IMG/VR virus record: IMGVR_UViG_3300050191_000196
Span: 1 to 44,111 of that record
Direction: 5' to 3' (one strand)
Length of the DNA: 44,111 nt
DNA from: a virus
In this document: piece after piece, positions 5,883-44,111 of the stretch
How the letters are laid out: each line of letters begins with the position of its first letter
Numbering within the stretch: position 1 is the first letter of the stretch
Program-made: the position numbers and the translations under genes
The notes under the pieces: model-generated
The model's database searches: none
Seen by the model: only the letters and a program-made list of their open reading frames with translations
Told to the model about the DNA's origin: nothing

Positions 5883-7064
5883 ATGCCCCGCAAACCCAAA
5901 GAGCAAAAACACAAAGGCGTCTTCGAAAGGGTGAAGGGGTCGAACATCTGGTGGATCCGCTACACGAACGAGCAGGGCAAGCGGGTCACCTCCAAGGTCG
6001 GAACTTTCGCGGCGGCCGTACATGTTTACGATCAGCGCACGGCCGCTATTCGGCTGGGCGTACTCCTTCCTCACTCGCCTCGGCGCGGCGTGAAGTTTTC
6101 CGAGCTGGTGACCGACGCGATCAATTTCGCCGAGAAGCATCACCGCGCCTCGAAGGATTTCAAACAGCGGGCGAACCTCGCTGTTGAGGCGTTCGGCGAC
6201 CGCGCGGCCGAATCCATCACCACGCGGGAGCTGCAGGACTGGGTCGACCAGATGGCGGACGAACGGGACTGGACAGGAGGCACGCGGAACAGGTTCAAGT
6301 CCACCCTGAGCACGGTCTTTCGGGAGGGCATGAGGGCCGGCAAGATCAAGGTCAACCCGGCCCGGCTAGTCCGGCGTTCGAAGGAGGCGCTGGGACGGGT
6401 CCGGTTCCTGTCCTACGAGGAAGAAGCCCAGCTCCGCAAGGCCATCGCGGCGACGCTGCCCGGCCGGATCAAGGACGAAGGCGAAAGTGCATTCGCTCAG
6501 CTCGACATCGCCCTCCACACCGGGATACGCAAGTCGGAGCAGTTTACGGCGACATGGGATCAGGTGGATCTCGAAAAGGGGTACATCTATCTCTCGATGA
6601 CCAAGAACGGCTCGGACCGGTTCGTCACGCTCAACAGTGCCGCCGCAGAAGTTCTTAAGCTGCTCAAGAAGCGCCACGAGGAGCTTGGCCTGCCTTCGGA
6701 TTCCACCCTGTTCCATTCGAAGCGTGACGGGCTGATCAAGAACCCCCGCAAGTGGTTCGCCACAGCGCTCGAGCAGGCTGAGATCGAGGGCGTCACCTGG
6801 CACACCCTGCGGCACACCTTCGCTAGTCGTTTAGTGATGGCTGGGGTAGACTTGAAAACAGTGCAGGAACTCATGGGACACAAGACGATCGCGATGACCG
6901 CTCGGTATGCCCACCTCGCCCCGACGCACAAGTTACGGGCGCTGGAGACCCTGGTTCGTCCGGGGTCGGTTTCGGTACAAAGTGGCTACAAATTGGCTAC
7001 CAACGCCAAGAAGGCCGCGAGGGGTAGAAAACTAAATAGCCTTCAACTTGTTGAATCTAAATAA
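5883..7064 (+). CDS. tyrosine-type site-specific integrase (island integrase)
   Basis: A 393-aa protein with a complete tyrosine recombinase active site: R216 (TGIRKSEQ), K241 (MTKNGSDR), H307-x-x-R310 (WHTLRHT), H333 (MGHKT) and nucleophile Y342 (ARYAHL). An Arm-type DNA-binding start (residues 10-60) and a SAM-like core-binding domain (about 68-165) precede it. Ribosome site AAGGAA lies about 9 bases before ATG. The stop is 14 bp before tRNA-Lys, so this enzyme very probably uses that tRNA locus. It is divergent from the ABC-3C operon and may mobilise it. It shares little with the second recombinase at the right end, which keeps a Tyr where this one has His307. Confidence 0.93.
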   Translation: MPRKPKEQKHKGVFERVKGSNIWWIRYTNEQGKRVTSKVGTFAAAVHVYDQRTAAIRLGVLLPHSPRRGVKFSELVTDAINFAEKHHRASKDFKQRANLAVEAFGDRAAESITTRELQDWVDQMADERDWTGGTRNRFKSTLSTVFREGMRAGKIKVNPARLVRRSKEALGRVRFLSYEEEAQLRKAIAATLPGRIKDEGESAFAQLDIALHTGIRKSEQFTATWDQVDLEKGYIYLSMTKNGSDRFVTLNSAAAEVLKLLKKRHEELGLPSDSTLFHSKRDGLIKNPRKWFATALEQAEIEGVTWHTLRHTFASRLVMAGVDLKTVQELMGHKTIAMTARYAHLAPTHKLRALETLVRPGSVSVQSGYKLATNAKKAARGRKLNSLQLVESK

Positions 7065-16199: not shown

Positions 16200-16673
16200 A
16201 TGGCGTCGCTTGAGCAGCTGCAGTTTCTCGATCGCGTTCACAGTGCGGCGCGCCTGGCGAATCACGTCTGGCCTGAATATGCGGCGTGCGAAGCGGCGCT
16301 CGAAACGGCGTGGGGAACGAGCCAGCTCTACATCCGCGGGAACAACATCTTCGGCGAAAAGCAGCACGTCGATCCGGTGTTTCTGACTCTGAAGCTGCCC
16401 ACGCGGGAGATGCAGGCTGGACAGTGGGTCACGGTGCAGGCCGATTTCATCTGGTTTCCGAGCGCGAATGAGTCGTTCGTGATGCGGATGAAGACACTGC
16501 GACGGCTCGGCTATCCCGAGTATGCGAACGCGCTGGCGGCGTCGACGGGCGAAGAGTTCGTGACGGAAGTGTCAAAGCGCTGGTCGACGGATCTGGAGCG
16601 CGCGGCGAAGGTGCTGGCGATTCACAGCGCGCACAAAGACGTCCTCGCGGCGGCGGTAAAGGAGCAGGTATGA
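16200..16673 (+). CDS. GH73-type glucosaminidase endolysin
   Basis: A 157-aa protein of FlgJ/GH73 type. EYAACEAALETAWGTSQLY (residues 26-44) contains the family catalytic Glu (E35 in ALETAWGTS), and RGNNIFGEK (46-54) is the conserved N-x-F-G-x-K substrate loop. The domain fills the protein; no signal peptide or cell-wall-binding tail is seen, so export needs the holin. It should cleave the GlcNAc-MurNAc backbone. Place between a TM protein and a two-TM protein fits a lysis cassette. Confidence 0.87.
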   Translation: MASLEQLQFLDRVHSAARLANHVWPEYAACEAALETAWGTSQLYIRGNNIFGEKQHVDPVFLTLKLPTREMQAGQWVTVQADFIWFPSANESFVMRMKTLRRLGYPEYANALAASTGEEFVTEVSKRWSTDLERAAKVLAIHSAHKDVLAAAVKEQV

Positions 16674-29025: not shown

Positions 29026-29520
29026 ATGCCGATGAGCGCGAAGGTGACGGGTTTTCCGGAGCTGCAGGGAAAGGCGCGCCTCCTGCGCGAGGCCGTCCGC
29101 GATCGCATCGCCAAAGATGCGGTGAAAGCCGGTGCCGCTGTCATTCTGGAAGCGATGCTCGAAGGCGCACGGGTGGCAGCGACCGCGCCGACGCCGGAGA
29201 GCACGGCTGCGGCGGTCGGTGCGCTGCGCCATGGCATTCGGGCTACCTCGCCTCGCGTCGATAAGCTGGGCTTTGTCTCGTCACTGATTGGCGCCGCGAA
29301 GCGGGTCGCCTATCTTGCGCGCTGGATCGAATACGGCCATCGTCTCGTCAAGGGCGGCAAATCGCGCGTCGGCCTCAAAGGTAAATACGAGCCTGGCCGC
29401 CAGATCGGTGTGGTGCCGGCGTATCCGTTTTTGCGGCCGGCTTACGAAAGAACGGAGCGCGCATCGCTCGATGCTTTTGCTGAGACTGCGCGCACAGAGA
29501 TGCGGGAGGTTCTTCGCTGA
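29026..29520 (+). CDS. HK97 gp10-like minor protein, displaced into the tail module
   Basis: A 164-aa protein from ATG 29026 (GGAG nine bases upstream; ATG 29032 also possible). It has the HK97 gp10 family pattern: ELQGKARLLREAVRDRIAKD (11-30), AGAAVILEAMLEGA, an internal WIEYGHRLVKGG and AYPFLRPAYERTE near the C-terminus. Such proteins usually lie between closure and tail terminator genes; here it is between the tail chaperones and the tape measure. One base of its stop is shared with the next start. Confidence 0.8.
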   Translation: MPMSAKVTGFPELQGKARLLREAVRDRIAKDAVKAGAAVILEAMLEGARVAATAPTPESTAAAVGALRHGIRATSPRVDKLGFVSSLIGAAKRVAYLARWIEYGHRLVKGGKSRVGLKGKYEPGRQIGVVPAYPFLRPAYERTERASLDAFAETARTEMREVLR

Positions 29521-32003
29521 TGGGAAGCATGGGCACGCTCGGGACCGTTAACGCTCAGTTCGCGGCTGATACGAAGCAGTTCGACGCCAGTCTTTCCAGC
29601 TCGGAGGCCAGAATGGCGGCGGCTGCCAAGAAAGCGGAGCAGCTCGGCCAGGCTGTCACGCAGCTCGGGGCGGCATCCGATCGCGCGGCGACTGCGCAGG
29701 AGCGCGCTTCGGAGCGGGCGCGGCGCGCGTGGCAGCAGGAACTGATCCAGCAGGATCGCGCCATTCAGGCGGAGCAGGAAGCCGCGCGCGCGAAGGAACT
29801 GGCGGCGCTCAAAGCTGACATCCTCTCACGGTCGCTTGAGAAGCAGGCCGGCGCGCAGAATGCAGTCAATACCGCGGTAGAACATGGCGTGCCGCAATAC
29901 GCGGCCGCGAGCGCGGCGGTGCGAGCTCTCGAAGGCGGCATGAACAACAACGTGCGCGCCGCAGAACGGTTTCTCTCGACGACGCTAGGCCTCGGGCCTG
30001 CGTTGCAGGTGCTGTTTCCCGTCGCTGGCGGCCTCGCGTTCATGGACATCCTGATCCGGATGAGCACGAAGATTATGGAGATCGCCCAGAACTGGGAGGG
30101 AGTGAAGGATGCTGAGAAGGACGCGCTCAGCGCGCTCGAGAAGACGGATACGGAGGGTATCCGCCAGGCATCGGAGCATTCCGGGTTGATTCGCGAGCAG
30201 CAGATGGCGATGGTGGGGCTAAGCGTGCCGCGCGAAGGACGTGCCGCCGCGGAGCAGGCTGTATCGGCGCGCTTTGATATAGCGGATGCGAAAACGAAGC
30301 TCAGTGATCTGCAGTCGCAGATAGATTCGGGTAACGCTCAAATAAGAGCCCTCGATCTTCAGCGGCGATCGCAGCAGACGCAGTTGGTCACGAAATATGG
30401 TACCGCGCCCGGCCAGTTCGACCCAACGAAGGATCCCGTGTCAGTCTATGAGCCGACGAATGACGCAGATTGGGCGCGCGGGAAGATGGCAGAGATCGGC
30501 GATGCTATGGAGACGGCCTCGCGAGAGAAGCGAAATGTCCAGCAGCAGATCCTCACCCTGCAGGCACAGCAGCGATTGCAGCTGAAAGAGGCGCAGGAGG
30601 GAGCCGGCCGCGGCGAGCGGCGTGATGCCACGCAACAAATGGGCACCTGGCGTCAGCAGCTCGAAGCGCAGAAAGCCGGCCATACGATGACGCTTGACGA
30701 TGAGGCGGCTTACTGGCAGAAGCTCGCGGACAGCGTGAAGCGCGGGTCGGTGCTCTACAACTCCGCCCTGATGGAGGCAAACAAGGCTCGGACGGAAAGC
30801 CTCAAGCAATATCAGAGCGCATTTATCGCGAGCGTGCTCTCCGACGCGGAGGCGCGGCGTCAGGCGCAGGAACAAAGTCAGCGCGTCAGCGAGAATCTGC
30901 AGGAGAATTGGGACGCGGCCAACGCCCGCGATCGCGAGGAGGCGAAGGCGATCGAGGAGAGCGCATCCCGGGCCTTCGAGGCCGCCGAGCAGCAGAGGAA
31001 AACGGCCGATCGGCTGGCGGAGGAAACGATCAAGCTCCGCGAGGCCTCCGGACAGCTCTCCCGCGCCGGGGCAGCGCAGGCGCTGGCTACAATCCATCAG
31101 GAAAGTTTTGCCAGCTGGTCCGCGGCTGCCACGTCATTTTCGGCGCAGTTTCCCACCGCGGCGTTGCCGGGCGGCGCGCAGACGATGCGCGAGTATGAGA
31201 CGCAGGCCGCGCAGGATGAAGCCGCGCAGGAGGCAACGACGGCGCTGGGCGCCTTGCGCGAAACAACAGACAAGCTAACACAGAGCTTTCTCGATCTCCC
31301 GGCGCATCTGCAGCAAATGCTTGTCGCAACCGTCAACGGCTTCAACGGCGCGTTTTCGAGCGCGGTGATGGCTCCGGCGCGCAGCGGCCATGAATACCGG
31401 CAGGGGATTACCAGCGCGATGGGTGGCCAGTTCCGCACCGCCGGATCACGGGGTCTCGATGCAGCGCTGCAGATGGGCGAGGGTGGTCTGCTGAAGACGC
31501 TCGGTTTCGGCAACCCGAAATCGAAACCGGATGGTACGGCGGGCAATCCGCTCTGGGTCCGCATGGCGCAGGCGGCTGCGGGAGTTTCCGGATTATCAGG
31601 ACTGGGAAGCCTGTTTTCCGGCGTGGCGAGTGATGCCGGCGCAACGACACCAGGCAGCTCACTTGGCATGATCAACACGGCAATGTCGCTGGCGACAGAG
31701 ATTCCCATGTTCGCGTCCGGCGGTGCGATTCCGTCGAATATGCCGGCGATCGTGGGTGAGCGCGGGCCGGAGCTCTTCATGCCGACGTCGTCGGGCAGGA
31801 TCATTCCAAACGACCAGCTGGGCGGCGGCGGCAAGAGCGGGGACGTGCACTTTCATATCGACGCGCGCGGCGCGACCGATCCGGCTGCGGTGCAGTTCTC
31901 CATCGATCGCGCGCTGGCTAAATACGATCGTACGTTTCAGACGAAAGCTGTAGCCTCGATTCGAAATTACAATCGCGGCGTAACGGGTACCGCGAGGGTT
32001 TAA
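29520..32003 (+). CDS. tape measure protein
   Basis: An 827-aa protein, the second largest of the tail set. The first 140 residues and 220-560 are long helical coiled-coil stretches rich in Ala, Gln and Glu (SEARMAAAAKKAEQLGQAVT, for example). A hydrophobic segment near residues 158-185 (LGLGPALQVLFPVAGGLAFM) may insert in the membrane during DNA entry. Near the C-terminus GERGPELFMPTSSGRIIPND is the hallmark GE-x-GPEL motif. It sets tail length and guides the tube; about 0.15 nm per residue would give roughly 120 nm. Confidence 0.93.
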   Translation: MGSMGTLGTVNAQFAADTKQFDASLSSSEARMAAAAKKAEQLGQAVTQLGAASDRAATAQERASERARRAWQQELIQQDRAIQAEQEAARAKELAALKADILSRSLEKQAGAQNAVNTAVEHGVPQYAAASAAVRALEGGMNNNVRAAERFLSTTLGLGPALQVLFPVAGGLAFMDILIRMSTKIMEIAQNWEGVKDAEKDALSALEKTDTEGIRQASEHSGLIREQQMAMVGLSVPREGRAAAEQAVSARFDIADAKTKLSDLQSQIDSGNAQIRALDLQRRSQQTQLVTKYGTAPGQFDPTKDPVSVYEPTNDADWARGKMAEIGDAMETASREKRNVQQQILTLQAQQRLQLKEAQEGAGRGERRDATQQMGTWRQQLEAQKAGHTMTLDDEAAYWQKLADSVKRGSVLYNSALMEANKARTESLKQYQSAFIASVLSDAEARRQAQEQSQRVSENLQENWDAANARDREEAKAIEESASRAFEAAEQQRKTADRLAEETIKLREASGQLSRAGAAQALATIHQESFASWSAAATSFSAQFPTAALPGGAQTMREYETQAAQDEAAQEATTALGALRETTDKLTQSFLDLPAHLQQMLVATVNGFNGAFSSAVMAPARSGHEYRQGITSAMGGQFRTAGSRGLDAALQMGEGGLLKTLGFGNPKSKPDGTAGNPLWVRMAQAAAGVSGLSGLGSLFSGVASDAGATTPGSSLGMINTAMSLATEIPMFASGGAIPSNMPAIVGERGPELFMPTSSGRIIPNDQLGGGGKSGDVHFHIDARGATDPAAVQFSIDRALAKYDRTFQTKAVASIRNYNRGVTGTARV

Positions 32004-32047: not shown

Positions 32048-32090
32048 ACCGAAGCTCCGCCACGGCGGGGCTTTTCTGTTGGGAGTTACT
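32048..32090 (+). terminator. terminator hairpin T2, 43-bp repeat copy 1
   Basis: AAGCTCCGCC (32052-32061), AC, GGCGGGGCTT, then TTCTGTTGGGAG. It is the first of two near-identical 43-bp copies (the other at 32216-32258, two differences). The 125 bp between copies contain a 26-codon reading at 32099-32179 (ITNPAAQEFFEKLANG...) that lacks ATG/GTG/TTG and would need ATC as start. Confidence 0.75.
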
Positions 32091-32215: not shown

Positions 32216-32258
32216 ACCGAAGCTCCGCCACGGCGGAGCTTTTCTGTTGGGAGCTACT
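32216..32258 (+). terminator. terminator hairpin T3, 43-bp repeat copy 2
   Basis: AAGCTCCGCC-AC-GGCGGAGCTT (perfect 10-bp arms, 32220-32241), then TTCTGTTGGGAG. The GGGAG is the ribosome site for ATG 32262. It differs from copy 1 at two positions only. Confidence 0.8.
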
Positions 32259-32261
32259 TCC

Positions 32262-32585
32262 ATGCGGCGTTTCGCCCTTGCTGCGCTGATGGCCACTGCG
32301 TTGTTCCTGCGCGGCTGCACGCCGATCCCCTGCTTTGCGGACGACGCTGCGAAACCCGCGCTGACGCCGGCGCAGGCGCTCGAGCGGCTGCGGGCGGACG
32401 ATGCCGGCGTCGTTGCCCGGCAAAAGGAAATGCAGGCGCTGATCTTCGAGTTTCGCTTCGCCGAATGCGAGCGGGACTGGCACCAGACGCCGCTCTGGAA
32501 GCGGCTTGCAAAGTATCACGCGAAGGATCCGTGCTGGGCGGTGGTTCGCCGCGCGGAGAAGGTTCCCAAAGGAGTTGCACCATGA
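32262..32585 (+). CDS. small exported protein in the tail region
   Basis: A 107-aa protein from ATG 32262, preceded by GGGAG from hairpin T3. Residues 1-26 are a signal peptide (MRRFALAALMATALFLRGC, then TPIPCFADDA; cleavage perhaps after FA). The rest is charged and helical (ALERLRADDAGVVARQKEMQ, then FRFAECERDW). No family recognised. A secreted protein between tape measure and tail fibre is unusual for a virion gene; it may act in the periplasm. Stop overlaps the next start. Confidence 0.65.
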   Translation: MRRFALAALMATALFLRGCTPIPCFADDAAKPALTPAQALERLRADDAGVVARQKEMQALIFEFRFAECERDWHQTPLWKRLAKYHAKDPCWAVVRRAEKVPKGVAP

Positions 32586-34102
32586 AAAAGGCCCTCCCCC
32601 TTCTTGCATTCGTCTTCATCCTGGCAGCCTCCTGCGGCGAGCGCACGTCGGCCGCAAAATCGTCACCTGTTGCGCCATCGGCGCTGACGGTGCCGGTCTC
32701 CGGATCGATACTCGGGCCCACCGCCATGTTCACCTTCACAGCTAACAGCAAGATCGAGCAGTATCAGCTCTGGATCGGGACGGCTTACCACACCGACAAC
32801 GTCGCCGAATTCAATTTCGGCAGCACAACGGCAGCGTCGATCTCGAAGACGGTCACCAATCTGCCGCAGAACGGCGCCACGCTCTATGTGCTGATCGGCT
32901 CGGATATCGGCGGGACCTGGCAGGAAACGTACTCGACCTTCACTGAAGGAACGCAGGCTCCGCCGGCGCCGACGATTCAGTCAGTCTCCTGCGCGTCCGC
33001 CGCGATCGCGAGCGGTGGCACCGAGGCCTGCGGGGTGACGCTGACGGCGGCGGCCACGGCAGCTTCGCTGGTCACGCTGAGCTCGAGCAGCGGCAACCTG
33101 ATCGTTCCGGCTTCGGTGTCGGTGGTCGCCGGCGTCCAGAATGTCGCGTTTACGGTGACGGCGGCTGCGGTGACCGCGGCCACGCCGGCAACGATCACGG
33201 CGCAGCTCAATGGCACGGCGACCTTCGCGCTGACCATTGAGGCGGCCGCAGCGCCGACGCTCACGCTCAGCTCCTCGAGCCTCGCGTTTGGCAGCGTCGC
33301 CGAAGGTGAGACGGCCGAAGGCGGCGTGACGCTCTCCTCGACCGGGACGTCCGCCGTCACGATTACCGGAATCACGGTGACGGGCAGCGGAGCGTTCAGC
33401 GTCGCAGGCGTCACGGCCGGATCGACGATGCCGCCGGGCGCGACTGCCTCGCTCGATGTGACGTTTGCACCCACGGCGACGGGAGCGGCGACGGGTTCGG
33501 TCGCGATCGCGAGCAACGCCGGGACGAAAACGGTGACGCTGAGCGGCACCGGAACGCCGCCTCCGGGAACGCTCGCCGCACTCAGTTGCGCAGCGGGCAC
33601 GTTTGTGGGTATGGGAGGCTCCGATACCTGCACGGTGGGCCTGACGGCCGCTGCGGGCGCTGGCGGCCTGGTTGTTGGGCTGTCGAGCAGCTCCGCCGCG
33701 GTCACCGTTCCCGTCTCCGTTACGGTCGCCGGCGGTGCGTCGACAGCGACCTTCACAGCGACGGCGTCGACGGTGACAACGCCGACAACGGTAACGCTGA
33801 CCGCGGCGGCCGGAGGCCGGACGCAGACGTTTGCGATCGGCCTGACGCCTCCATCGAGCTATCAGGTCGATCTCACCTGGGCCGCGCCATCGTCGTCGGC
33901 CGATCCGGTTGCCGGCTACATCGTCTACCGCGCCACCGGGACGGGCAACTACGAACCGCTTTTCACGACGCCGGTGACGGCGCTCGCTTTCAATGATCTG
34001 AACGTCAGCGCGGGGACGACCTACGACTACGAGGTCACCTCCGTCGACGCCGCGGGCAATGAAAGTGTGCCGTCGAGCGTCTACACGGCCGCCATCCCTT
34101 AA
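32582..34102 (+). CDS. predicted lipoprotein with choice-of-anchor-D and fibronectin III-like domains
   Basis: A 506-aa protein from ATG 32582 with ribosome site AAAGGAG. It begins with a lipoprotein signal (MKKALPLLAFVFILAASC; lipobox LAASC). Further domains: Ig-like Ser/Thr-rich modules near 135-220 and 370-440, an ASPM-SPD-2-Hydin domain near 225-325 (LTLSSSSLAFGSVAEGETAE) and a fibronectin III-like end (YQVDLTWAAPSSSADPVAGY onwards, 415-506). Such domains are common in Acidobacteria surface proteins. In a prophage it could modify the host surface or serve as tail decoration; export argues for the former. Confidence 0.75.
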   Translation: MKKALPLLAFVFILAASCGERTSAAKSSPVAPSALTVPVSGSILGPTAMFTFTANSKIEQYQLWIGTAYHTDNVAEFNFGSTTAASISKTVTNLPQNGATLYVLIGSDIGGTWQETYSTFTEGTQAPPAPTIQSVSCASAAIASGGTEACGVTLTAAATAASLVTLSSSSGNLIVPASVSVVAGVQNVAFTVTAAAVTAATPATITAQLNGTATFALTIEAAAAPTLTLSSSSLAFGSVAEGETAEGGVTLSSTGTSAVTITGITVTGSGAFSVAGVTAGSTMPPGATASLDVTFAPTATGAATGSVAIASNAGTKTVTLSGTGTPPPGTLAALSCAAGTFVGMGGSDTCTVGLTAAAGAGGLVVGLSSSSAAVTVPVSVTVAGGASTATFTATASTVTTPTTVTLTAAAGGRTQTFAIGLTPPSSYQVDLTWAAPSSSADPVAGYIVYRATGTGNYEPLFTTPVTALAFNDLNVSAGTTYDYEVTSVDAAGNESVPSSVYTAAIP

Positions 34103-34147
34103 CGGAAGCTCGAAACCCTTTTCGAAACCCTCAAGGAGACTCTCGCG

Positions 34148-37100
34148 ATGAAACATTTCTGGATCCGCCTTCTGGCGGCGCCGCTGCTGTTCTCGTCGGC
34201 TTTCGCGCAGACGGGCTGGGTCACGATGACCGGCGCGAACCTGACGGATGCGACCGGCGCGCCGATCTCAAATGGGACGGCGTGCTGGCAGGTGACGACG
34301 AACGCGGGGACGCCGATCGGCGTGCATGTGGGCGGGAGCTCCGGCGGACAGACGGCGACGCGGCCGCCCTGCGGCCCGGTGAACAACGGCGCGCTGGTGG
34401 GAGCCTGGCAACAGGCGGATCCTACAGCGGCCGGAACGAATCTGATTCCGGATCCCGTGATCACCGGTTTCACCTCGTGGACGAATCCCGGCGCGGCGTG
34501 GGAGATCGGGAGCGGCGCGAATCTCGGCACCTCGCCGGTGAATGGCCTGACCGCGCAGGCGGGCGCATCGGGAACGACGCAGACTTCGATCGCCGGACCG
34601 ATCACGGTGACGCCGGGTCAGGTGTACACGTTCAGCGGCTTCATCATTCTGAGCTCGGGCGGAGTCGGTTCGGGCGAGTGGGTGATCGGCGGTTCGGGGC
34701 TGACCACGATCTACGCTTCAGGAGGCCTGGCCAGCGGCCCGAACGGCACGGTGCGTCTCCAGTTCGTCGTACCGGCGGGTGTCACGCAGGTCTACGTCGG
34801 TGCCGACGTTGCCGCTGCTACGATTCCGAGCGGGCAGACGCTCAGCTTCGCGCGGCCGCTGCTGCAGGCTGGCGCGAGCCAGCTTCCGGACGTCAATCTG
34901 TCGACGCCGCAGAATGCCTGCATGCAGCTGACGGTCACCGACAACACTTCCGGCAATACGCTGCTGGGCGGCCCGGGTTCGGGCTATAGCTGCGTGCAGC
35001 CGCAGTACACGCTGAGCTCGCCGCCGATGAGCTGCGCCGCGGGGGTCTGCAATCTCGACAGCTATCTTCCCACCACGACACCGCAGGTCGCCCAGACCAC
35101 GGGGCCGACCGGGCCCGCCGGTCCCGGCATCAACTACGTCGGTAACTGGACGGCGAACACCGCCTACGTCGCCAACGATGTATATACCGAGAGCGGAACG
35201 AACTACGCGGTGCTGAGCGCCTACACCTCGGGCTCGACCTACGGGTCGACGGACACGGCGCATAACACGACGTTCACCATCACCGACGCCACGGCGCGCT
35301 CGGAGGCAAGCTCCGCGCAGGCGACCGCGAATGCAGCGCTGCCGCTCGCCGGCGGCACGATGAGCGGTCCTCTGAATGGGCCTTCCCTGAATCTGAGTGT
35401 GGTCTGCGCGAACACGTCTTCCGATGTGACCAACATCAACACAGCGCTTGCCAGCGCGCTCGCAACCAGCGCGCCGACGCACGTCTCTGTCTATGGCGTT
35501 ACCTGCGATCTCCCTTCGACTCTCGTTATCGGGAGCAACACCTGGCTGGATGTGTCTCCGACGACGACCATGACGGGGACCACGTATGGGGCACACCTGA
35601 TCGAGACGTACGCTTCCAATTACGGGGTGAATCGCAGCACGACGGATGGAGCATCCACTGCGTCCAGCTCTACGATCACGTCGGCAACGATCAATTGCAC
35701 CACCGCGGATGTCGGCCGCCCCTTCCGGTTGAGCACTGCCGGGCAGCCGGCAGAAAGCTACAGCGGGCTGACCGGCTACTGGCTGACGCCCGATCTATAC
35801 GGGCATGTTGTTTCCTGCAACAGCACCACCTCGTTCCGGTCGGACGTCCCCGCCTATGCGACAACCAGCGCGCAAACCCTCAAATTCTATAACTGGGACA
35901 CGAACATCAAGATCACGGGAGGCATCTGGTATCGCAGTTACGCGAACGCGGGGAACAACATCATGAACATGGTTCGCGTGAACGGCCTGTTGATTCAGGA
36001 CGCTGTCTTTAATTCCCCGTCGAACACCACCGGCAGCCTGGGCGGTCTCTACGCCATACAAATGGCGGATGCAAACCAGGTACGCGTGGATAAGGTCACC
36101 ATGCCCTTCGTTCTTTCCGATGGCGTCCATCTGGACGGTCCCGATGTGGATGTGTCCATCACGAACCTTGTGGCCAACACGGGGGACGACACAGTCGTGA
36201 TCACCACGAGGGACTGGGCCGGACCATCCGCCCTACTGGAAACCGGCGCGAATGAGATTTATGGAAGCGTGTATGGATGGCATCTGGACGGCATCCACGG
36301 TAGCTCCCGCACCTCGCTGGTCCGCTTCGGATCCACGCAGGGGCTATCCGTCAAGCACGTTTCCGCTCACGATATTTACGCCAGCTCGCCAAGCGGCGGA
36401 GTCATCACCGCAGACGATCCCTTTTTTGGGGGTGGTTTTACAGACGATATCGTGATCGACGGCGTGGGCGGTCAAATTACTTCTGTATCCCGCAACGAGA
36501 ACGTGTTCCAGAGTACGCAGACGAACGTCGGCGACATGGTGCTGAAGAACATCGATTTTTCGCAGGCCAACATTTCCTGCTGCAACGCGATCGTGGTAAT
36601 GGGAAACAGCCCCAACGCGAACGCCACTCTGAACAGCGTGATGGTCGACGGACTGAAGGGAACCCTCGTGAACGGGGCAGTTCAATCAGCCGCGGTCTAC
36701 GTATCGCAGAACGCTACGGTGAAGAATCTGACGGTCGCTAATGCCGACGTCACGATGAGCGGGTCCACCACCAACGCGCTCCCGTTCGTGGATGTAGAGA
36801 AGGATCCAACGGGGCTCGGCGTGACGAGGCTCTCTAACATACGGATTACGTGTGCGGATTCCACGACCGCCTACCCCATCGGTTGTTACGGCCTGGCTCT
36901 CAACACGAACCTCGTCAGCGGCGCTGCGTATCATGCGGTCTATCTCGACAATGTGAGGATGACGGCGACGGGCGGTAGTTCCATGGTGATGCTGTACGGC
37001 GAGCCGGCTCCCCTGAGTCTGCTGCAGGTTAACAACGTGGACCTTACGTTCGATGAAACTACGCAGTCGGAAGCAATCTGGCTTTACAATCCCGGCGCGT

Positions 37101-37795
37101 TGTCTCTCGGTCAGTTCAATAATTTCTCGCAGTATTCCGGGCGTGACTTCTTCTGGCCAGGGAGCCGCGGCACGTTTGGGCCGATTCAGTTCTCGAATCT
37201 AAGTGTCAATGGGACCTATATCTTTTGCGATTGCACCAGCGCAGCGGATATAACCTTCCACGGGGCGGTTGTCAACGCGAGCTACGTGGTCAATAACTAC
37301 ACCGGCTATGGCGGCAGCGGGTCGATCTACATCCGCGGGTCCGGGTTTTCGACAACCGGGACACCTCTCATCAACAACAGCTTCCCGCTGCACGTCATCA
37401 ATGAGGACTTCCCCGGCGATCTGTCGCTGGAGACGGCGCCGGCGGTGGGCGACAAGATATTCAACACGAACACCACGTACGGCCCGAACGCTCCGATGAT
37501 GTACGACGGATCGCACTGGCGGCCGATCGCGGGCGGATTTCACGCGACGACGGGCAGCATCGGCGGCTCCTCGGTGGCATCGGGCGCGTGCGCGACGGGC
37601 AGCGTGACCATCAACGGCGCGGCGGTGGGAATGAATGCATCGGCGGCTCCCGCCACGTCGACCACGCCGGGCGCATTCTTCACGGTCAGCGCGGGGCCGA
37701 TCACGACGGCGAACACGGTGCCCGTCAATGTCTGCAATCAGAGCGCGGGAGCCTTGACGCCGACCGCGGCTACCTACACGGTCACGGTGAACTGA
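34148..37795 (+). CDS. large beta-helix tail fibre/spike-like protein with a signal peptide
   Basis: A 1215-aa protein with ribosome site AAGGAGA. Residues 1-20 read as a Sec signal (MKHFWIRLLAAPLLFSSAFA). Then an N-terminal Ig-like part, a jelly-roll-like region (about 95-240), a short collagen-like TGPTGPAGPG (near 320), a Trp/Tyr module (WTANTAYVANDVYTESGTNY) and a long parallel beta-helix (about 415-1130; IKITGGIWYRSYANAGNNIM, ITNLVANTGDDTVVITTRD). The C-terminal 90 residues are Thr/Ala-rich strands. It would bind or degrade surface glycans; catalytic residues cannot be assigned. A signal peptide on a tail fibre is odd. Confidence 0.8.
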   Translation: MKHFWIRLLAAPLLFSSAFAQTGWVTMTGANLTDATGAPISNGTACWQVTTNAGTPIGVHVGGSSGGQTATRPPCGPVNNGALVGAWQQADPTAAGTNLIPDPVITGFTSWTNPGAAWEIGSGANLGTSPVNGLTAQAGASGTTQTSIAGPITVTPGQVYTFSGFIILSSGGVGSGEWVIGGSGLTTIYASGGLASGPNGTVRLQFVVPAGVTQVYVGADVAAATIPSGQTLSFARPLLQAGASQLPDVNLSTPQNACMQLTVTDNTSGNTLLGGPGSGYSCVQPQYTLSSPPMSCAAGVCNLDSYLPTTTPQVAQTTGPTGPAGPGINYVGNWTANTAYVANDVYTESGTNYAVLSAYTSGSTYGSTDTAHNTTFTITDATARSEASSAQATANAALPLAGGTMSGPLNGPSLNLSVVCANTSSDVTNINTALASALATSAPTHVSVYGVTCDLPSTLVIGSNTWLDVSPTTTMTGTTYGAHLIETYASNYGVNRSTTDGASTASSSTITSATINCTTADVGRPFRLSTAGQPAESYSGLTGYWLTPDLYGHVVSCNSTTSFRSDVPAYATTSAQTLKFYNWDTNIKITGGIWYRSYANAGNNIMNMVRVNGLLIQDAVFNSPSNTTGSLGGLYAIQMADANQVRVDKVTMPFVLSDGVHLDGPDVDVSITNLVANTGDDTVVITTRDWAGPSALLETGANEIYGSVYGWHLDGIHGSSRTSLVRFGSTQGLSVKHVSAHDIYASSPSGGVITADDPFFGGGFTDDIVIDGVGGQITSVSRNENVFQSTQTNVGDMVLKNIDFSQANISCCNAIVVMGNSPNANATLNSVMVDGLKGTLVNGAVQSAAVYVSQNATVKNLTVANADVTMSGSTTNALPFVDVEKDPTGLGVTRLSNIRITCADSTTAYPIGCYGLALNTNLVSGAAYHAVYLDNVRMTATGGSSMVMLYGEPAPLSLLQVNNVDLTFDETTQSEAIWLYNPGALSLGQFNNFSQYSGRDFFWPGSRGTFGPIQFSNLSVNGTYIFCDCTSAADITFHGAVVNASYVVNNYTGYGGSGSIYIRGSGFSTTGTPLINNSFPLHVINEDFPGDLSLETAPAVGDKIFNTNTTYGPNAPMMYDGSHWRPIAGGFHATTGSIGGSSVASGACATGSVTINGAAVGMNASAAPATSTTPGAFFTVSAGPITTANTVPVNVCNQSAGALTPTAATYTVTVN

Positions 37796-37801
37796 GCCTC
37801 G

Positions 37802-38452
37802 ATGCAGACCATCACCATCAACGGCATGAGCTACAGCCTCGTGACCATGCCGGGCTCGCCCGGGCCGGCCTCGATCGAGATGGGCTGGAACGATCTCGTC
37901 TCGCTCGAAATGTCGCCTTATACGCTGCAGCAGCAGACGCAGCAGTGGCCGGGCGCCGACTGGTGGGATGCGAAGGTGACACTGCCGCCGATGAACGCCG
38001 CCACGGCCGCACAGTGGAAGGCGTTTCTCGCGGATCTGCGCGGGCCGCTCAATGTCTTCGAGCTCGGCGACCCGACCCAGCCGCATCCGCTGGGCAACAT
38101 CGGCGCCTCGAATCCGAAGATCGACAGCGGAGGTCCCTATCTCGCCACGCAGACCTCGATCGGCACAGTGGGCTGGGCCGCGAATCAGGCGGGTGTGCTG
38201 CTGAAGGGCGATCTGTTTCAGCTTGGCTATCGGCTGCACATGGTCGTCGATGGGCAGGTGAATTCGAACTCGGCCGGCGCAGCGACGTTCTCAATCTGGC
38301 CCTCGCTGCGCGAATCGCCGGCAGCGGGGACGCCGCTCACGCTCAAGTGGGCAAAGGGTCTCTTTCGCCTGCCGGTCGGGCGGCGCGGTTTCTCCGCCTC
38401 GCCGGCGCAGGCGATCCGCATTGGCAGCTTTCCCTGCATCGAGGTTCGATAA
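37802..38452 (+). CDS. distal tail / minor tail protein
   Basis: A 216-aa protein from ATG 37802. MGWNDLVSLEMSPYTLQQQT (27-46), QQWPGADWWDAKVTLPPM (47-64) and FLADLRGPLNVFELGDP (75-91) match a tail protein common in siphophages with lambda-like tips. The C-terminal half is beta-rich. It probably forms the ring below the tube. The stop overlaps the next start as TAATG. Confidence 0.75.
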   Translation: MQTITINGMSYSLVTMPGSPGPASIEMGWNDLVSLEMSPYTLQQQTQQWPGADWWDAKVTLPPMNAATAAQWKAFLADLRGPLNVFELGDPTQPHPLGNIGASNPKIDSGGPYLATQTSIGTVGWAANQAGVLLKGDLFQLGYRLHMVVDGQVNSNSAGAATFSIWPSLRESPAAGTPLTLKWAKGLFRLPVGRRGFSASPAQAIRIGSFPCIEVR

Positions 38453-39015
38453 TGCCGCGCGATCTTGACACTACGCTGGCCGCCGATCTGGCCGGGCCGA
38501 ACTTCCAGCCGGTCCTTCTCGCCTCGCTCGCCTTCCGTTCGCAGACGGTGCATTACTGGAGCGGCCGCGGGTCGCTGGTGTGGAATGGCATGACCTTCGA
38601 GGGCATCGGCACAGTGGGTCGCATGGGCGCGATCGGCGCCGGAACGGCGGAGGTCGGCGAGACGGGAACGACGCTCGAGGCGAGCGGCCTCGATGCGAAT
38701 CTGCTGGGCGAGACGATGACCGATATTCAGATGGGCGCGCCGGTCTCGCTCCGGCTGGGCTCCTGGCAGAATGGCGCGCTGCATGGAACCCCATATCTGC
38801 TGTGGCAGGGCGGCATGGGCCAGCCGGTGATTACGCCCGACCCGCAGAAGTTCTCGATCGTGCTGGCGCTGCAGACGCGCATGGCGCAGCTCTCACGCCC
38901 GACCTTACGCCGCTACACGGCCGCCGATCAGCGGCTCTATTACCCCACCGACACCGGCTTCAACTGGGTCGAGATCCTCGACGACATCGCCGTGCTCTGG
39001 GGCCAGAAAAACTAG
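38452..39015 (+). CDS. DUF2163-like tail tip protein
   Basis: A 187-aa protein from ATG 38452. AFRSQTVHYWSGRGSLVWNG (27-46), MTFEGIGTVGRMGAIG and TGTTLEASGLDANLL are typical of DUF2163/gp12-like baseplate hub proteins; the middle has VSLRLGSWQNG. It should assemble with the NlpC/P60-like protein and the large tip protein that follow. The upstream open frame (in the fibre and distal protein) is a shadow. Confidence 0.8.
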   Translation: MPRDLDTTLAADLAGPNFQPVLLASLAFRSQTVHYWSGRGSLVWNGMTFEGIGTVGRMGAIGAGTAEVGETGTTLEASGLDANLLGETMTDIQMGAPVSLRLGSWQNGALHGTPYLLWQGGMGQPVITPDPQKFSIVLALQTRMAQLSRPTLRRYTAADQRLYYPTDTGFNWVEILDDIAVLWGQKN

Positions 39016-39017
39016 CC

Positions 39018-39521
39018 ATGGCCGCGATCGTGACATCCGCCGCTGCTGCGGCGGCGCAGAAGCTCGTCCGCACCGCGCACTGGGCGACGCGCGAGTATCA
39101 CCGCTTCCTGCTCGCGCGCGCGAAGACTCCGTTTGCCTGGGGCACGAACGACTGCGCCAGCTTCGCCGCGGATGGCATCCTCGCCATGACCGGGGTCGAT
39201 ATCGCCGCCGCGTTTCGCGGGAAGTACACGGACGAGGCCTCCGCGCTCGCGGCGATCAAAACGATTGCCGGAGGCGCAACGATTGCCGACGCGGCCGCAT
39301 GGTGCGCCGCGCAGCATGGCCTTCCGGAATGGCAGCATCCGCTGCTCGCGAAGCGCGGGGATCTCGTGGTGTTCACGGCACCGGGGATCGGCGGCGAGCG
39401 CCAGCTGCAGGCGGGACTCGTGCACCTCACCGGCCGCCACGTGGTCGCGCCTGGAGATAAGGGTCTCAGGCTCATGAAGGTGGCCGGGGCCGCCACGATC
39501 CTGCGGAGCTGGCATGTCTAA
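39018..39521 (+). CDS. DUF6950/NlpC-P60-like tail tip peptidase
   Basis: A 167-aa protein from ATG 39018. WGTNDCASFAADGILAMTGV (residues 41-60) contains the presumed catalytic Cys of the papain-like fold; GDLVVF near 117-122 and GLVHLTGRHVVAPGDKGL near 133-150 supply the His region. Such proteins locally cut peptidoglycan peptides as DNA enters. It overlaps the next gene by eight bases. Confidence 0.8.
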   Translation: MAAIVTSAAAAAAQKLVRTAHWATREYHRFLLARAKTPFAWGTNDCASFAADGILAMTGVDIAAAFRGKYTDEASALAAIKTIAGGATIADAAAWCAAQHGLPEWQHPLLAKRGDLVVFTAPGIGGERQLQAGLVHLTGRHVVAPGDKGLRLMKVAGAATILRSWHV

Positions 39522-42500
39522 AGCGATTGCCGGTGCAGCGATGCTCGGCGGTGCGATCGGTTTGAGCGCGTTGGCGGCTTTCGTCGATCCGGCGCTCATT
39601 GCGAGCCCCTTCTACGACAAGGCGATCCTCGCGCTCGCCATGGGCGGCATCAGCATGGAGGCGGGCGCCATCGCGCAGGCGCTGACGCAGCAGCGCGGGA
39701 TGAACATCACCACGCGGCAGCCGGCGCAGCCGCGCCAGATCGTCTATGGCTGCCAGCGTGTGGGCGGGGTCATGGTCTACGAATCGACCACCGGCGGCAA
39801 AAACGACCAGTACAACATGTGCATCGTTATTGCGACACACCAGATTCAGGCGATCGAGGCTCTCTATCTCGACGGGCGCAAGGTGTACTGGAATTCAGGC
39901 ACCGGCAATACCACGCGCAACGGATACAACTTTGGCGGGTCGGCCGCCACGTCGGGCGGGATCGACGGCAGCGGCACTTACATCGGGCCCAACGGACAGC
40001 ATTACAACTTCGGGACGCTGGTCTACTGTGAAGCGCGTTTTGGCGATCAGGCGGAGGGCGACGTCATCGGCGGCTTCACCGCCAACGATCCGAACTGGGC
40101 GGCCAGCGCCTCCGGCAGCCCGTGGCTGGGCGGCTGCGCGTATGTCTATCTCAAAATCGAATACGACGCGGCGATGTTCCCGCAGTTTCCGGAGATCCGC
40201 TTCACCATCCACGGCAAGGAGGACATCCTCGATCCACGCACCGGCCTCACCGGCTACACGGAGAACCCGGCGCTGATTGTCAATGACATCCTCACCGGGG
40301 CCGCCTGGGGACTGGGCGACAGCACGGTCAATCGGGCGCAGCTGATCGCCGCGGCGAATGTCTGCGATGAGACGCTGAGCTGCGCGCCGACCGTAGCTGA
40401 CCCCGCAGGCTCGCTCACCGAAGCGCGCTATGCCGCCAGCTGGCACTACGACACCTCGACGCCGCCGGGCGAGGCGATCAAAGTTTTTCTCGAAGCGATG
40501 GGCGGCCGCCTGACGCGCACGGGCGGGGAGTGGTTCATCTGGCCGGCTTACTGGCAGGGTCCGACCGCGGCCTGGGACGAGAATGTCCTGCTGGAGCCGC
40601 CGAAGTGGAACCCCTACCGCAAGCCGGACGAACTGATCAATCGGGTCAACGGCACCTACATCGCGCCCAACTACCCCTACAACATCGCCGGCGATCTCTA
40701 CGATGCGAACGGCTGGTACAACGGCTCGATCCAGAACAACTTCCCGTTCGCTTTCCAGCCGACCAACTTCCCGCAGTATGCGGCCGACACGCTGCACGGC
40801 TACGCGGGCGACCAGTACCTCAACGAGGATTCGGGTGCCACCAGCGTCTGGAGCTCGGCGACGTCCTATATCGCCGGCGCCGTGGTGCTGGCCGGGACCA
40901 GCAATGAGCAGATTTTTCTGGCGGTCGAGGCCTCGACCAACGTCGCGCCGTTCTCCTCCGCCGTCACCTGGAATGCGCTGATCGCTTACACCACCGGCGC
41001 TCAGGTCACCTACAACGGCACCCTCTACACGGCGCTTGCGTCGACCACCGGCAACCGGCCGGACATCTCGCCCACCGAGTGGCAGGTGTCGCCCTGGATC
41101 CCGTACGGCAATCAGCTGCCGCTCGAGCTCGAGCTGAAGGCGGTGCTGTCGGTTTCGCAGGCGCAGCGCCTGGCGAAGCTTAAGCTGATGCGCAACCGCC
41201 AGCAGGGTATGGGCGCGCTCAAGATGAAGGTCGCCGCCTACACGATGGAGGCGATCGACGTTTTCACGATGAGCTTTGCCCAGTTCGGATGGTCGGAGTA
41301 TCTGCTCGAAGTCGCCGGCGAGCCGCAGTTCGCGCTCGAGGAAGGCGAGGTGGACGAGGAAGGCAGGATCGTTTCCGCACCGCATTTCACGGTGACGGTG
41401 CCGGTAGCGGACACCTCGTCGACGGTCTACGAGTGGTCGATCACCGAAGAGCTGACCGTCTACGATGTGCCTTCAGTGCTGACCGGGGCCTCCTCGACGC
41501 CGCTCGCGCCGACCAGCATGACGCTGACCTCGGGCGCCTCGACGGCGGTGATCGGCGCCGATGGCCAAATTACGCCGCGGGTGCTGGTCGAGTGGACCGA
41601 TCCGCCGGACGGGTTTGTCACCGATATCCAGATTCAGTTCCGCACCGCCGGAAGCGGATCCTGGCAGAATGGCGGCTCGATCCCGGTTGGCCTCGGACAG
41701 GGCTACGTCACCGGCGTGGTGGCCGGACAGGCCTACGACTTCCAGATCCGCTCGGTGCGCGCGAACGGCGCCGTCTCACCCTGGGTGCAGGATCTCGACT
41801 ACACGGTCAGTCTGGTGCTTTCCGTCTCGGCGACCAGCGGGCAGATAGTGGCGCCGCCCGGCACGCTGGTCGCGCAGGCGCTGTCGGGCGGCACGGCGCA
41901 GATTCTGGTTGCGAACTTCAGCTGGACTCCGGCCGGAACCACGCTCAATTTCACGCCCAGCCCCTCGACGCTCACAGGCCTCGCGCAGGGGCAGCTCTAC
42001 TACGTTTACTTCATCGATCCAACCTATGCCGGCGGCAACATCACGCCCATCGCGACCCAGAATGCCGGCGACTTCCTGAACAAGGTCGGGTATCTGCTGA
42101 TCGGGTCGATCGTGACGCCGACCTATACGCCGCTCTACCGGCCGTCAGGTTCAAGCGATGTGGGCGCGCAGTCGACGTACGCTCCCGCCAGCGCCTACGA
42201 CGGCAACATCTCGACCGCGGCGCTGGTCTCCGGCAACTGGAGCAATTTTTTCAGCTTTGAAACCTTTCTCGGAGACTGCATCTGGAGCGGGTTTCCGGCC
42301 ATTGCGCTTGGAGCCGCGGCGAACCTGAATGTAACGCTCCAGCCGCTGGGCACGGGCGGATCGAGCGGGACGACGGGCACGATCACCGTGATCGCGCACG
42401 TCGGCGGGACGTCGTCGACGCTTGGCACATTTACGGCGGCCGCCGCGACGCAGACCCTGCAGCTCAGCCTGGCCTCGGGAACGAATCTGGGCACGGTCAG

Positions 42501-42594
42501 CCTCGAAGTGCAGGCGACCTCGACCAACGCGTCGCCGCCGGCGAACGGCAGCGGTAACGTCGCGGCGTATGTGTACGAGGTCTGGGTGCAGTGA
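39514..42594 (+). CDS. tail tip / host specificity protein (J-like) with sugar-binding-like inserts
   Basis: A 1026-aa protein. An N-terminal hydrophobic helix pair (residues 4-60) is followed by the conserved tip domain (PRQIVYGCQRVGGVMVYEST, 75-94; YVYLKIEYDAAMFPQFPEIR). Residues about 445-530 have two CBM5/12-like units (YIAGAVVLAGTSNEQIFLAV and YTTGAQVTYNGTLYTALAST). A fibronectin III-like region follows (about 660-770; PRVLVEWTDPPDGFVTDIQI), and the end is beta-rich for receptor contact. The last gene of the tail operon; defines host range. Confidence 0.87.
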   Translation: MSKAIAGAAMLGGAIGLSALAAFVDPALIASPFYDKAILALAMGGISMEAGAIAQALTQQRGMNITTRQPAQPRQIVYGCQRVGGVMVYESTTGGKNDQYNMCIVIATHQIQAIEALYLDGRKVYWNSGTGNTTRNGYNFGGSAATSGGIDGSGTYIGPNGQHYNFGTLVYCEARFGDQAEGDVIGGFTANDPNWAASASGSPWLGGCAYVYLKIEYDAAMFPQFPEIRFTIHGKEDILDPRTGLTGYTENPALIVNDILTGAAWGLGDSTVNRAQLIAAANVCDETLSCAPTVADPAGSLTEARYAASWHYDTSTPPGEAIKVFLEAMGGRLTRTGGEWFIWPAYWQGPTAAWDENVLLEPPKWNPYRKPDELINRVNGTYIAPNYPYNIAGDLYDANGWYNGSIQNNFPFAFQPTNFPQYAADTLHGYAGDQYLNEDSGATSVWSSATSYIAGAVVLAGTSNEQIFLAVEASTNVAPFSSAVTWNALIAYTTGAQVTYNGTLYTALASTTGNRPDISPTEWQVSPWIPYGNQLPLELELKAVLSVSQAQRLAKLKLMRNRQQGMGALKMKVAAYTMEAIDVFTMSFAQFGWSEYLLEVAGEPQFALEEGEVDEEGRIVSAPHFTVTVPVADTSSTVYEWSITEELTVYDVPSVLTGASSTPLAPTSMTLTSGASTAVIGADGQITPRVLVEWTDPPDGFVTDIQIQFRTAGSGSWQNGGSIPVGLGQGYVTGVVAGQAYDFQIRSVRANGAVSPWVQDLDYTVSLVLSVSATSGQIVAPPGTLVAQALSGGTAQILVANFSWTPAGTTLNFTPSPSTLTGLAQGQLYYVYFIDPTYAGGNITPIATQNAGDFLNKVGYLLIGSIVTPTYTPLYRPSGSSDVGAQSTYAPASAYDGNISTAALVSGNWSNFFSFETFLGDCIWSGFPAIALGAAANLNVTLQPLGTGGSSGTTGTITVIAHVGGTSSTLGTFTAAAATQTLQLSLASGTNLGTVSLEVQATSTNASPPANGSGNVAAYVYEVWVQ

Positions 42595-42953: not shown

Positions 42954-44111
42954 ATGGCGCGGAAGATGCTTGCCCGAGGCGCGGCGGATGGGTATACCCG
43001 AGAAGCTCATACGCCGGGGCACCGCGACTGCTCGGCCTGCGAAAGGGCCCGCATCGTGGAAACGACGCCGCTGACGCCTGCGCTGACTTTCGGCGCGGCC
43101 TTCGATCTGTGGATTGCGCGCCGGGTGATCGATCACGCCGGTCTGTGGTCGAATGCGCGCTATATAGCGCCGCGTACTGAGCGCGATCTCCGTCAGTACG
43201 CGCGGGCGGCGGAGAGATTTCTGGGCTTGCTGCGTCTGGAAGAAATTCATCCCGGGCATCTGCGCGAATACCAGCGGGCGCGGGCGGTCTGCGACAAAAG
43301 TGTCGCCGACTGGGAACAGCCGGCGGGTGCGAACCTGATCCGCAAGGAGGTGCAGTTGGTCCGGAGAGTGCTCTCGGCCGCTGGCGCCTGGACGCGGCAT
43401 CACGACGAAGCCTGGGAGCCGCTGCAGGGTGTGCATTCGGACGTGGGCCGGGCGATGACGCCGGAGGAGCAGCACCGGTTTCTGTATATGGCGCAGTCGC
43501 GCGAGGAGTGGCGCGTGGTGTACTGCTGGGCGCTGATCGCGCTCCAGACGACGGCCGCGACCAACGAGCTGCGGGCGCTCCGGATCGGCGATGTGTTTCT
43601 GACGCAGGGGACGATCCAGATTCGGTCGGAAGGCGCGAAGAACAAGTTTCGGGTTCGGACCATTCCGCTGCAGACGCCCGAAGTGGTCTGGGCGCTCGAG
43701 CAGCTGGTGGCGCGGGCGCACGCATTAGGGGCTTCGGGCCCGCACTGCTATCTGTTTCCGTTCCATCGCACGCAGAAGCAGTACGATCCGCTGCGTCCGA
43801 TGACGGTCTGGGGGATCCGGCGGAGCTGGGAAGCAGTCCGGTCGGCGGCGCATCTGGACTGGCTCAGGCCTTACGATCTGCGGCACACGGCGATCACGCG
43901 GATGGCGGAGGCCGGGGTGCCGATTCATGTCATCATGTCGTTTGCCGGTCATATGAGCCAGCGGATGCAGCTGCACTATACGAGCATCAGCATGGCGGCG
44001 AAGCGGGAGTGGGCGGGGCGGACATGGGCGGGGACGGCGCAGACGCCGAAGAAGCCGGCGGGAAGCGTGGGCCTCGGGCGTCGCTGGTCGGACCGGATGG
44101 GGATGGGGTGA
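42954..44111 (+). CDS. tyrosine recombinase, probable prophage integrase
   Basis: A 385-aa protein ending at the last base of the window. It has a Cys-containing start (HRDCSACERA, 23-32), SAM-like domain (about 45-155) and catalytic domain with R207 (NELRALR), K229/K231, Y307-x-x-R310 (PYDLRHT), H333 (AGHMSQ) and nucleophile Y342 (LHYTS). The first His of the HxxR motif is Tyr, a known variant in some tyrosine recombinase families. With the phage genes to the left and its place at the far end, it most likely integrates the prophage; attR should follow just after it. Confidence 0.88.
   Translation: MARKMLARGAADGYTREAHTPGHRDCSACERARIVETTPLTPALTFGAAFDLWIARRVIDHAGLWSNARYIAPRTERDLRQYARAAERFLGLLRLEEIHPGHLREYQRARAVCDKSVADWEQPAGANLIRKEVQLVRRVLSAAGAWTRHHDEAWEPLQGVHSDVGRAMTPEEQHRFLYMAQSREEWRVVYCWALIALQTTAATNELRALRIGDVFLTQGTIQIRSEGAKNKFRVRTIPLQTPEVVWALEQLVARAHALGASGPHCYLFPFHRTQKQYDPLRPMTVWGIRRSWEAVRSAAHLDWLRPYDLRHTAITRMAEAGVPIHVIMSFAGHMSQRMQLHYTSISMAAKREWAGRTWAGTAQTPKKPAGSVGLGRRWSDRMGMG

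Follow-up and report, generated by a model that had tools for sequence, protein, structure and literature searches.

Why should a tailed phage give its tail fibre a signal for export from the cytoplasm? The usual view is that a tailed phage assembles its entire particle in the cytoplasm, and tailed-phage fibres are not otherwise known to be assembled elsewhere. The window analysed here, an IMG/VR virus record of 44,111 bases, belongs to a temperate siphovirus-type phage, and a first-pass annotation placed three consecutive tail-region proteins with signal peptides at 32262-37795. Both the coordinates and the three signals proved right when the sequence was re-examined, and we agree that export is unusual for a tail fibre. 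The three genes, referred to as g1, g2 and g3, lie in the following setting:

5883-7064, integrase, within the window
16200-16673, glucosaminidase endolysin, signal peptide absent
from 18905, terminase
from 22558, head protease
from 23554, major head protein
29520..32003, plus strand, tape measure protein of 827 aa (PHROG 5062, tail length tape measure, E=1.6e-4), the 5' boundary of the cassette
32262..32585, plus strand, g1, predicted exported protein of 107 aa, Sec signal at residues 1-26
32582..34102, plus strand, g2, predicted lipoprotein of 506 aa, signal at residues 1-17 and lipid Cys18
34148..37795, plus strand, g3, fibre of 1215 aa with 18 Cys in the mature chain
37802..38452, plus strand, Dit, distal tail protein (PHROG 1302, E=3e-28)
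38452..39015, plus strand, tail protein (PHROG 2048, E=3e-26)
from 39018, NlpC-like protein, recognised from sequence
39514..42594, plus strand, tail tip hub (PHROG 5616, E=1e-43)

The tape measure protein is 40% identical to those of loci L002-L004, and the hub is 76% identical over its full length to that of L003, although the fibres of these two phages differ. Relatives of the phage point to hosts among the Terriglobales (Acidobacteriota), since a relative of the same module sits in the genome of Silvibacterium bohemicum S15 (L090). Besides the integrase listed above, a second tyrosine-recombinase-like gene (42954-44111; Pfam Phage_integrase, E=2e-17) is found at the record edge; the record may hold pieces of two elements, or the phage may carry two integrases. 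PADLOC gave no match to a defence system. Between the tape measure gene and g1, a 43-nt direct repeat (95%) at 32048-32090 and 32216-32258 includes a GC-rich hairpin (AAGCTCCGCCACGGCGGAGCTT), and a similar hairpin-like run also occurs upstream of the L002 and L005 fibre genes.

Signal peptides were assessed by rule and by eye. The signal of g1, MRRFALAALMATALFLRGCTPIPCFA, would be cut before DDAAK at an AxA-type site (FA|DD), leaving a mature part with two cysteines; g1 was also considered as a lipoprotein, and this was rejected because the arginine at -2 relative to C19 breaks the lipobox pattern PROSITE PS51257. The ATG of g2 overlaps the g1 stop, and its leader, MKKALPLLAFVFILAAS, is followed by CGERT; the sequence LAAS|C (residues 14-18) fits PS51257, and g2 is therefore a predicted lipoprotein. 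As the first-pass annotation had proposed, g2 bears Ig/SPD-2/fibronectin-like domains: an ASPM-SPD-2-Hydin (ASH) Ig domain at residues 225-324 is significant in Pfam (HYDIN_VesB_CFA65-like, E=4e-8; ASH, E=4e-7), and a fn3-like region at 423-498 is sub-threshold (E=1.4e-4). In g3, the classical signal MKHFWIRLLAAPLLFSSAFA is cut before QTGW and is of the textbook SPI type. A misannotated g3 start was considered and rejected because of the strong Shine-Dalgarno sequence (AAGGAG) upstream of the ATG and the agreement of homologues. In the rest of the window, no further called gene convincingly joins a charged n-region, a hydrophobic core and a cleavage site; the hub and a ParB-like protein, flagged by a loose signal rule, were judged to be false positives, and this rule was not used as a rate because it flagged hub proteins and other likely false positives. 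This confirms that the three adjacent signal peptides are real and beyond chance, since the window is otherwise devoid of convincing signals and the fibre signal is functionally conserved, though divergent in sequence, in dozens of distant homologues.

Alignment of g3 with the fibres of L003, L005 and L006 defined an N-terminal anchor domain of ~130 aa that directly follows the signal. In g3 itself this domain is split by an insert that most homologues lack:

34148..34207, plus strand, Sec signal peptide, assigned from sequence, function kept in homologues
34208..34402, plus strand, anchor domain part 1, residues 21-85, including C46 and C75, from homologue alignments
34403..34882, plus strand, inserted CBM4/16-like jelly-roll, residues 86-245, from Foldseek
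34883..35071, plus strand, anchor domain part 2, residues 246-308, including C258, C282, C296 and C301, from alignments
35135..37792, plus strand, variable C-terminal module, probable beta-helix tailspike, from a weak model

AF2 pLDDT is mostly 84-92 at residues 21-60 of the first anchor part and lower beyond, and 81-94 across most of the second. The insert, modelled with low to moderate confidence, has CBM4/CBM16 structures as its best PDB matches in Foldseek (E=5e-6), and the L007 homologue has a weak Pfam CBM_4_9 match. No homologue of the C-terminal module was found in the whole-fibre scan of viral contigs, which returned no relatives, and g3 has no significant Pfam match and no PHROG match. 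The beta-helix proposed in the first-pass annotation is plausible, though weakly supported: AF2 modelling of the C-terminal 821 residues from a single sequence reached a mean pLDDT of 45, and the PDB matches of this model are mostly tailspikes, all non-significant (E of at least 0.15).

The anchor domain proved to be the trait by which relatives could be traced. No match was obtained by tblastn of the fibre N- and C-termini against INPHARED phages, by a first scan of genome contigs for fibre relatives, or with the anchor profile against PDB sequences, and a match in a Cytophagales locus (L091) was spurious. Scans of viral contigs with anchor alignments yielded 46 and 25 loci, and the domain was found in 31 of 397 Terriglobales genomes and in 4 of the 396 Acidobacteriota genomes sampled; S. 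bohemicum S15 has a full-length fibre copy within a tail module. Capture of a common host secreted protein is not favoured, because the anchor is this rare and lies in phage tail modules wherever the context is recognisable (L126, L137 and L138 fall outside this set). Among 74 distinct copies from viral contigs and genomes, 60 have a signal peptide, with a positively charged and hydrophobic leader of divergent sequence, a signal-peptidase-type site and usually a Shine-Dalgarno sequence upstream. The other 14 start just past the would-be cut, with M-PTGYT or M-AGYT at its exact position. Homologues that start after the hydrophobic segment, which the first-pass annotation had named as grounds for abandoning its reading, do exist (L006, L018, L037, L068, L082, L070, L072, L073, L101-L104, L110); these are the very copies that lack the C258/C282 pair.

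The cysteines are the strongest evidence that the signals work. In signal-bearing anchors, cysteine numbers were even in 56 and odd in 4 of the 60 as counted, in a count that left out six distant or oddly ended copies whose domain end was unrecognised by the script, and all 60 are even after inspection: in L046, L048 and L089 the partner cysteine lies just upstream of the cut, and in L055 a signal-peptide cysteine had been included. Signal-less anchors have one cysteine in 11 cases and two in 3, and the C258/C282 pair in none, with C258 kept alone in L104. In the viral set, C258 (model column 76) is present in 45 of 46 signal-bearing copies versus none of 8 signal-less ones, and C296 and C301 occur together in 41 of 46 versus 0 of 8, never singly. 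Loss of C258 is generally accompanied by loss of C282 (L094, L116-L120), and the optional pair C46/C75 is gained and lost together; in L108 and L115 the fixed pairings are broken, with totals still even. When mature fibres are taken over their full length, with C-termini that mostly differ in fold, the count is even in 26 of 30 signal-bearing versus 2 of 6 signal-less cases; non-fibre proteins of the same loci are split between 41 even and 43 odd. Cysteine density falls from 1.9 per 100 aa in signal-bearing fibres to 0.9 in signal-less fibres and 0.5 in the non-fibre proteins. The cysteine counts of g1 (two in the mature part) and g2 (the lipid cysteine and four others, in two pairs of similar spacing) agree with a disulfide pattern.

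On a tree built without the cysteine columns, the signal changes three times and C258 changes three times; a single signal-less clade was not rejected (p-AU 0.105), which gives one to three signal losses. Few independent changes thus underlie the association between signal loss and cysteine loss, a limitation that does not apply to the parity evidence. The simplest reading of paired cysteines is disulfides, and therefore real export, and the missing C258/C282 pair in signal-less copies corroborates a working signal in the others. It is very likely that the signals work and that these fibres fold with disulfides outside the cytoplasm.

Where an exported fibre would act is suggested by its neighbours. 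Where the context is recognisable, the fibre gene lies between the tape measure and Dit genes or beside the hub gene. The g3 stop is separated from the Dit start by 6 nt, a spacing that recurs in L005, and no promoter-like site was found in a scan for E. coli-type promoters. In close phages the hub and Dit are 68-87% identical and the fibre is conserved in its anchor only, so that a conserved N-terminus carries swapped C-terminal modules; the distal modules of homologues (SGNH esterase, beta-helix, collagen, LamG) are typical of fibres and tailspikes. Neither in the window nor in L090 could a further fibre gene be recognised. A role as receptor-binding proteins of the virion is favoured by the late tail operon, by the swapped C-termini beside a conserved hub and Dit, and by the homologues without a signal at the same locus, for which assembly in the cytoplasm is the only possibility.

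We therefore favour, with a probability of roughly 0.6, the reading that g3 is a receptor-binding fibre or tailspike of a phage-specific family that would be exported by Sec, folded with disulfides in the envelope and docked on the tail at lysis. The first-pass annotation had raised a fibre attached outside the usual path as one option, and it is the one favoured here. Under the proposed mechanism, the fibre would be made with a signal peptide and exported by Sec, would acquire its disulfide bonds in the envelope, and would stay periplasmic or surface-held through late infection; holin and endolysin would then mix the compartments, the anchor domain would dock on the tail tip, and virion assembly would end outside the cytoplasm. 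Probably the fibres would be added to the particle only when the cell bursts or later. P22 tailspikes and T4 fibres attach in vitro, which suggests that docking at lysis is feasible. The difficulty is that a fibre located in the periplasm has to meet virions once the cell has lysed, or else stays caught in the envelope. The broader proposition that a tailed-phage lineage completes its virion outside the cytoplasm, by secreting fibres that undergo oxidative folding in the periplasm and attach at or after lysis, stands at about even odds. Our search of open-access papers found no description of tailed-phage fibres exported by Sec.

The main rival is surface display without a virion, as for the MAT fibres of Bdellovibrio. 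In this case, the infected cell or lysogen would display the exported fibre or release it, and the fibre might bind or cleave glycans, make cells adhere, hide receptors or capture competing phages. Signal peptides and paired cysteines, the lipoprotein encoded next door by g2 and the CBM-like insert in g3 would all suit such a role, and MAT fibres share with the family a signal, a conserved ~130-aa beta domain and diverse tips (PMC10769870). However, g3 belongs to a late tail operon, 6 nt before Dit and with no E. coli-type promoter recognised, the anchor keeps to phage tail modules wherever these can be recognised and is scarce in Acidobacteriota genomes, signal-less homologues at the same locus would remain cytoplasmic, no outer-membrane anchor was recognised in g3, and the window offers no other recognised fibre gene. 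The lysogen surface role put forward in the first-pass annotation is thus less likely than a virion role, given the late tail gene coupling and the signal-less homologues, and we regard it as unlikely, though the most serious competitor.

A much less probable explanation is that the fibre is assembled in the cytoplasm as usual, and that its hydrophobic N-terminus is either a remnant without function or serves inside the cell for docking or as a membrane tether. Virion proteins are normally cytoplasmic, and homologues without the segment exist; phage DGR proteins have likewise been described as lacking signal peptides (PMC6199706), in agreement with the usual rule. Against this, the full n/h/c signal architecture is maintained in 60 of 74 copies despite divergent sequence, and even, pairwise-conserved cysteines are confined to signal-bearing copies.

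The first-pass annotation had also treated the three genes as one system, which finds no support because no relatives of g1 and g2 were found in the loci collected and the fibre occurs without them. Relatives of g1 were absent from a scan of viral contigs and from the approximately 90 loci tested, and relatives of g2 were absent by tblastn from the approximately 90 loci fetched; the fibre is present without both genes in L090, L005 and L007, among others, and in L007 the g1/g2 interval is occupied by a second fibre instead. A moron cassette expressed in the lysogen, whose three products act together at the surface, is therefore the most doubtful of the alternatives: the genes are adjacent, g1 and g2 overlap, all three products are predicted to be exported and the hairpin-containing repeat lies upstream of g1, but neither g1 nor g2 was found in any of the related phages examined, the interval is filled differently in L007, and g3 is coupled to Dit. 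Most likely, the exported products of g1 and g2 are accessories specific to this phage, envelope or superinfection-type extras and not parts of a conserved machine, and of the three genes only the fibre appears to belong to something general.

In several related loci, at least two fibres share the exported anchor and differ in their distal modules (L003 14429-15725; L007 2729-4088; L014, L015, L029, L047, L055). Prophages L129, L130 and L135 combine signal-bearing fibres with a GTA-like tail module (DUF2460/DUF2163-like, NlpC and hub proteins, judged from sequence), and the habit therefore appears to cross phage groups. Next to the fibre, L003 (8263-8649) and L061 (8606-8974) encode a small protein that likewise starts with a signal-like segment; the two copies are 54% identical, and the L003 copy has no Pfam or PHROG match. 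Tail-adjacent genes with signal-like N-termini in which the anchor was not recognised are also present (L047 9485, L071 9415, L076 8890, L130 6901, L135 9415). These genes suggest that export of tail-region proteins is a wider habit of these prophages.

If this phage-restricted fibre family of Acidobacteriota is indeed routed through Sec and gains disulfides, then either assembly of a tailed phage can finish outside the cytoplasm, where disulfides and perhaps glycosylation become available to the fibres, or phages secrete tail fibres for use at the cell surface. S. bohemicum S15, a cultured lysogen with a copy of the family, makes the question directly testable.

Among known systems, the fibres and tailspikes of tailed phages (P22/HK620/Sf6, collagen-like) have the same arrangement of a conserved N-terminal anchor with exchangeable C-terminal modules (beta-helix, esterase or lectin in the known proteins), and the same place next to the tape measure, Dit and hub genes; unlike the g3 family, they are cytoplasmic and without signal peptides. 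Filamentous phages resemble the family in that pIII and pVIII are virion proteins with signal peptides that are assembled at the envelope, but inoviruses are extruded through the envelope without lysis, and pIII and pVIII are unrelated to g3. The Lys44 endolysin of phage fOg44 is exported by Sec before lysis (PMC6116005), and exported endolysins thus show that Sec serves tailed phages for the export of late proteins; these are lytic enzymes, whereas the g3 family consists of fibres. The closest architecture found, by analogy, is that of the Bdellovibrio mosaic adhesive trimer (MAT) fibres, which by their description (PMC10769870) are surface-displayed and likewise join a signal and a ~130-aa beta-rich domain to diverse tips. 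The genes for MAT fibres are bacterial and their products stand on the surface of the bacterium, whereas the g3 family belongs to phage tail operons, includes signal-less members and has paired cysteines; the family could thereby bridge phage fibres and exported bacterial fibres such as MATs.
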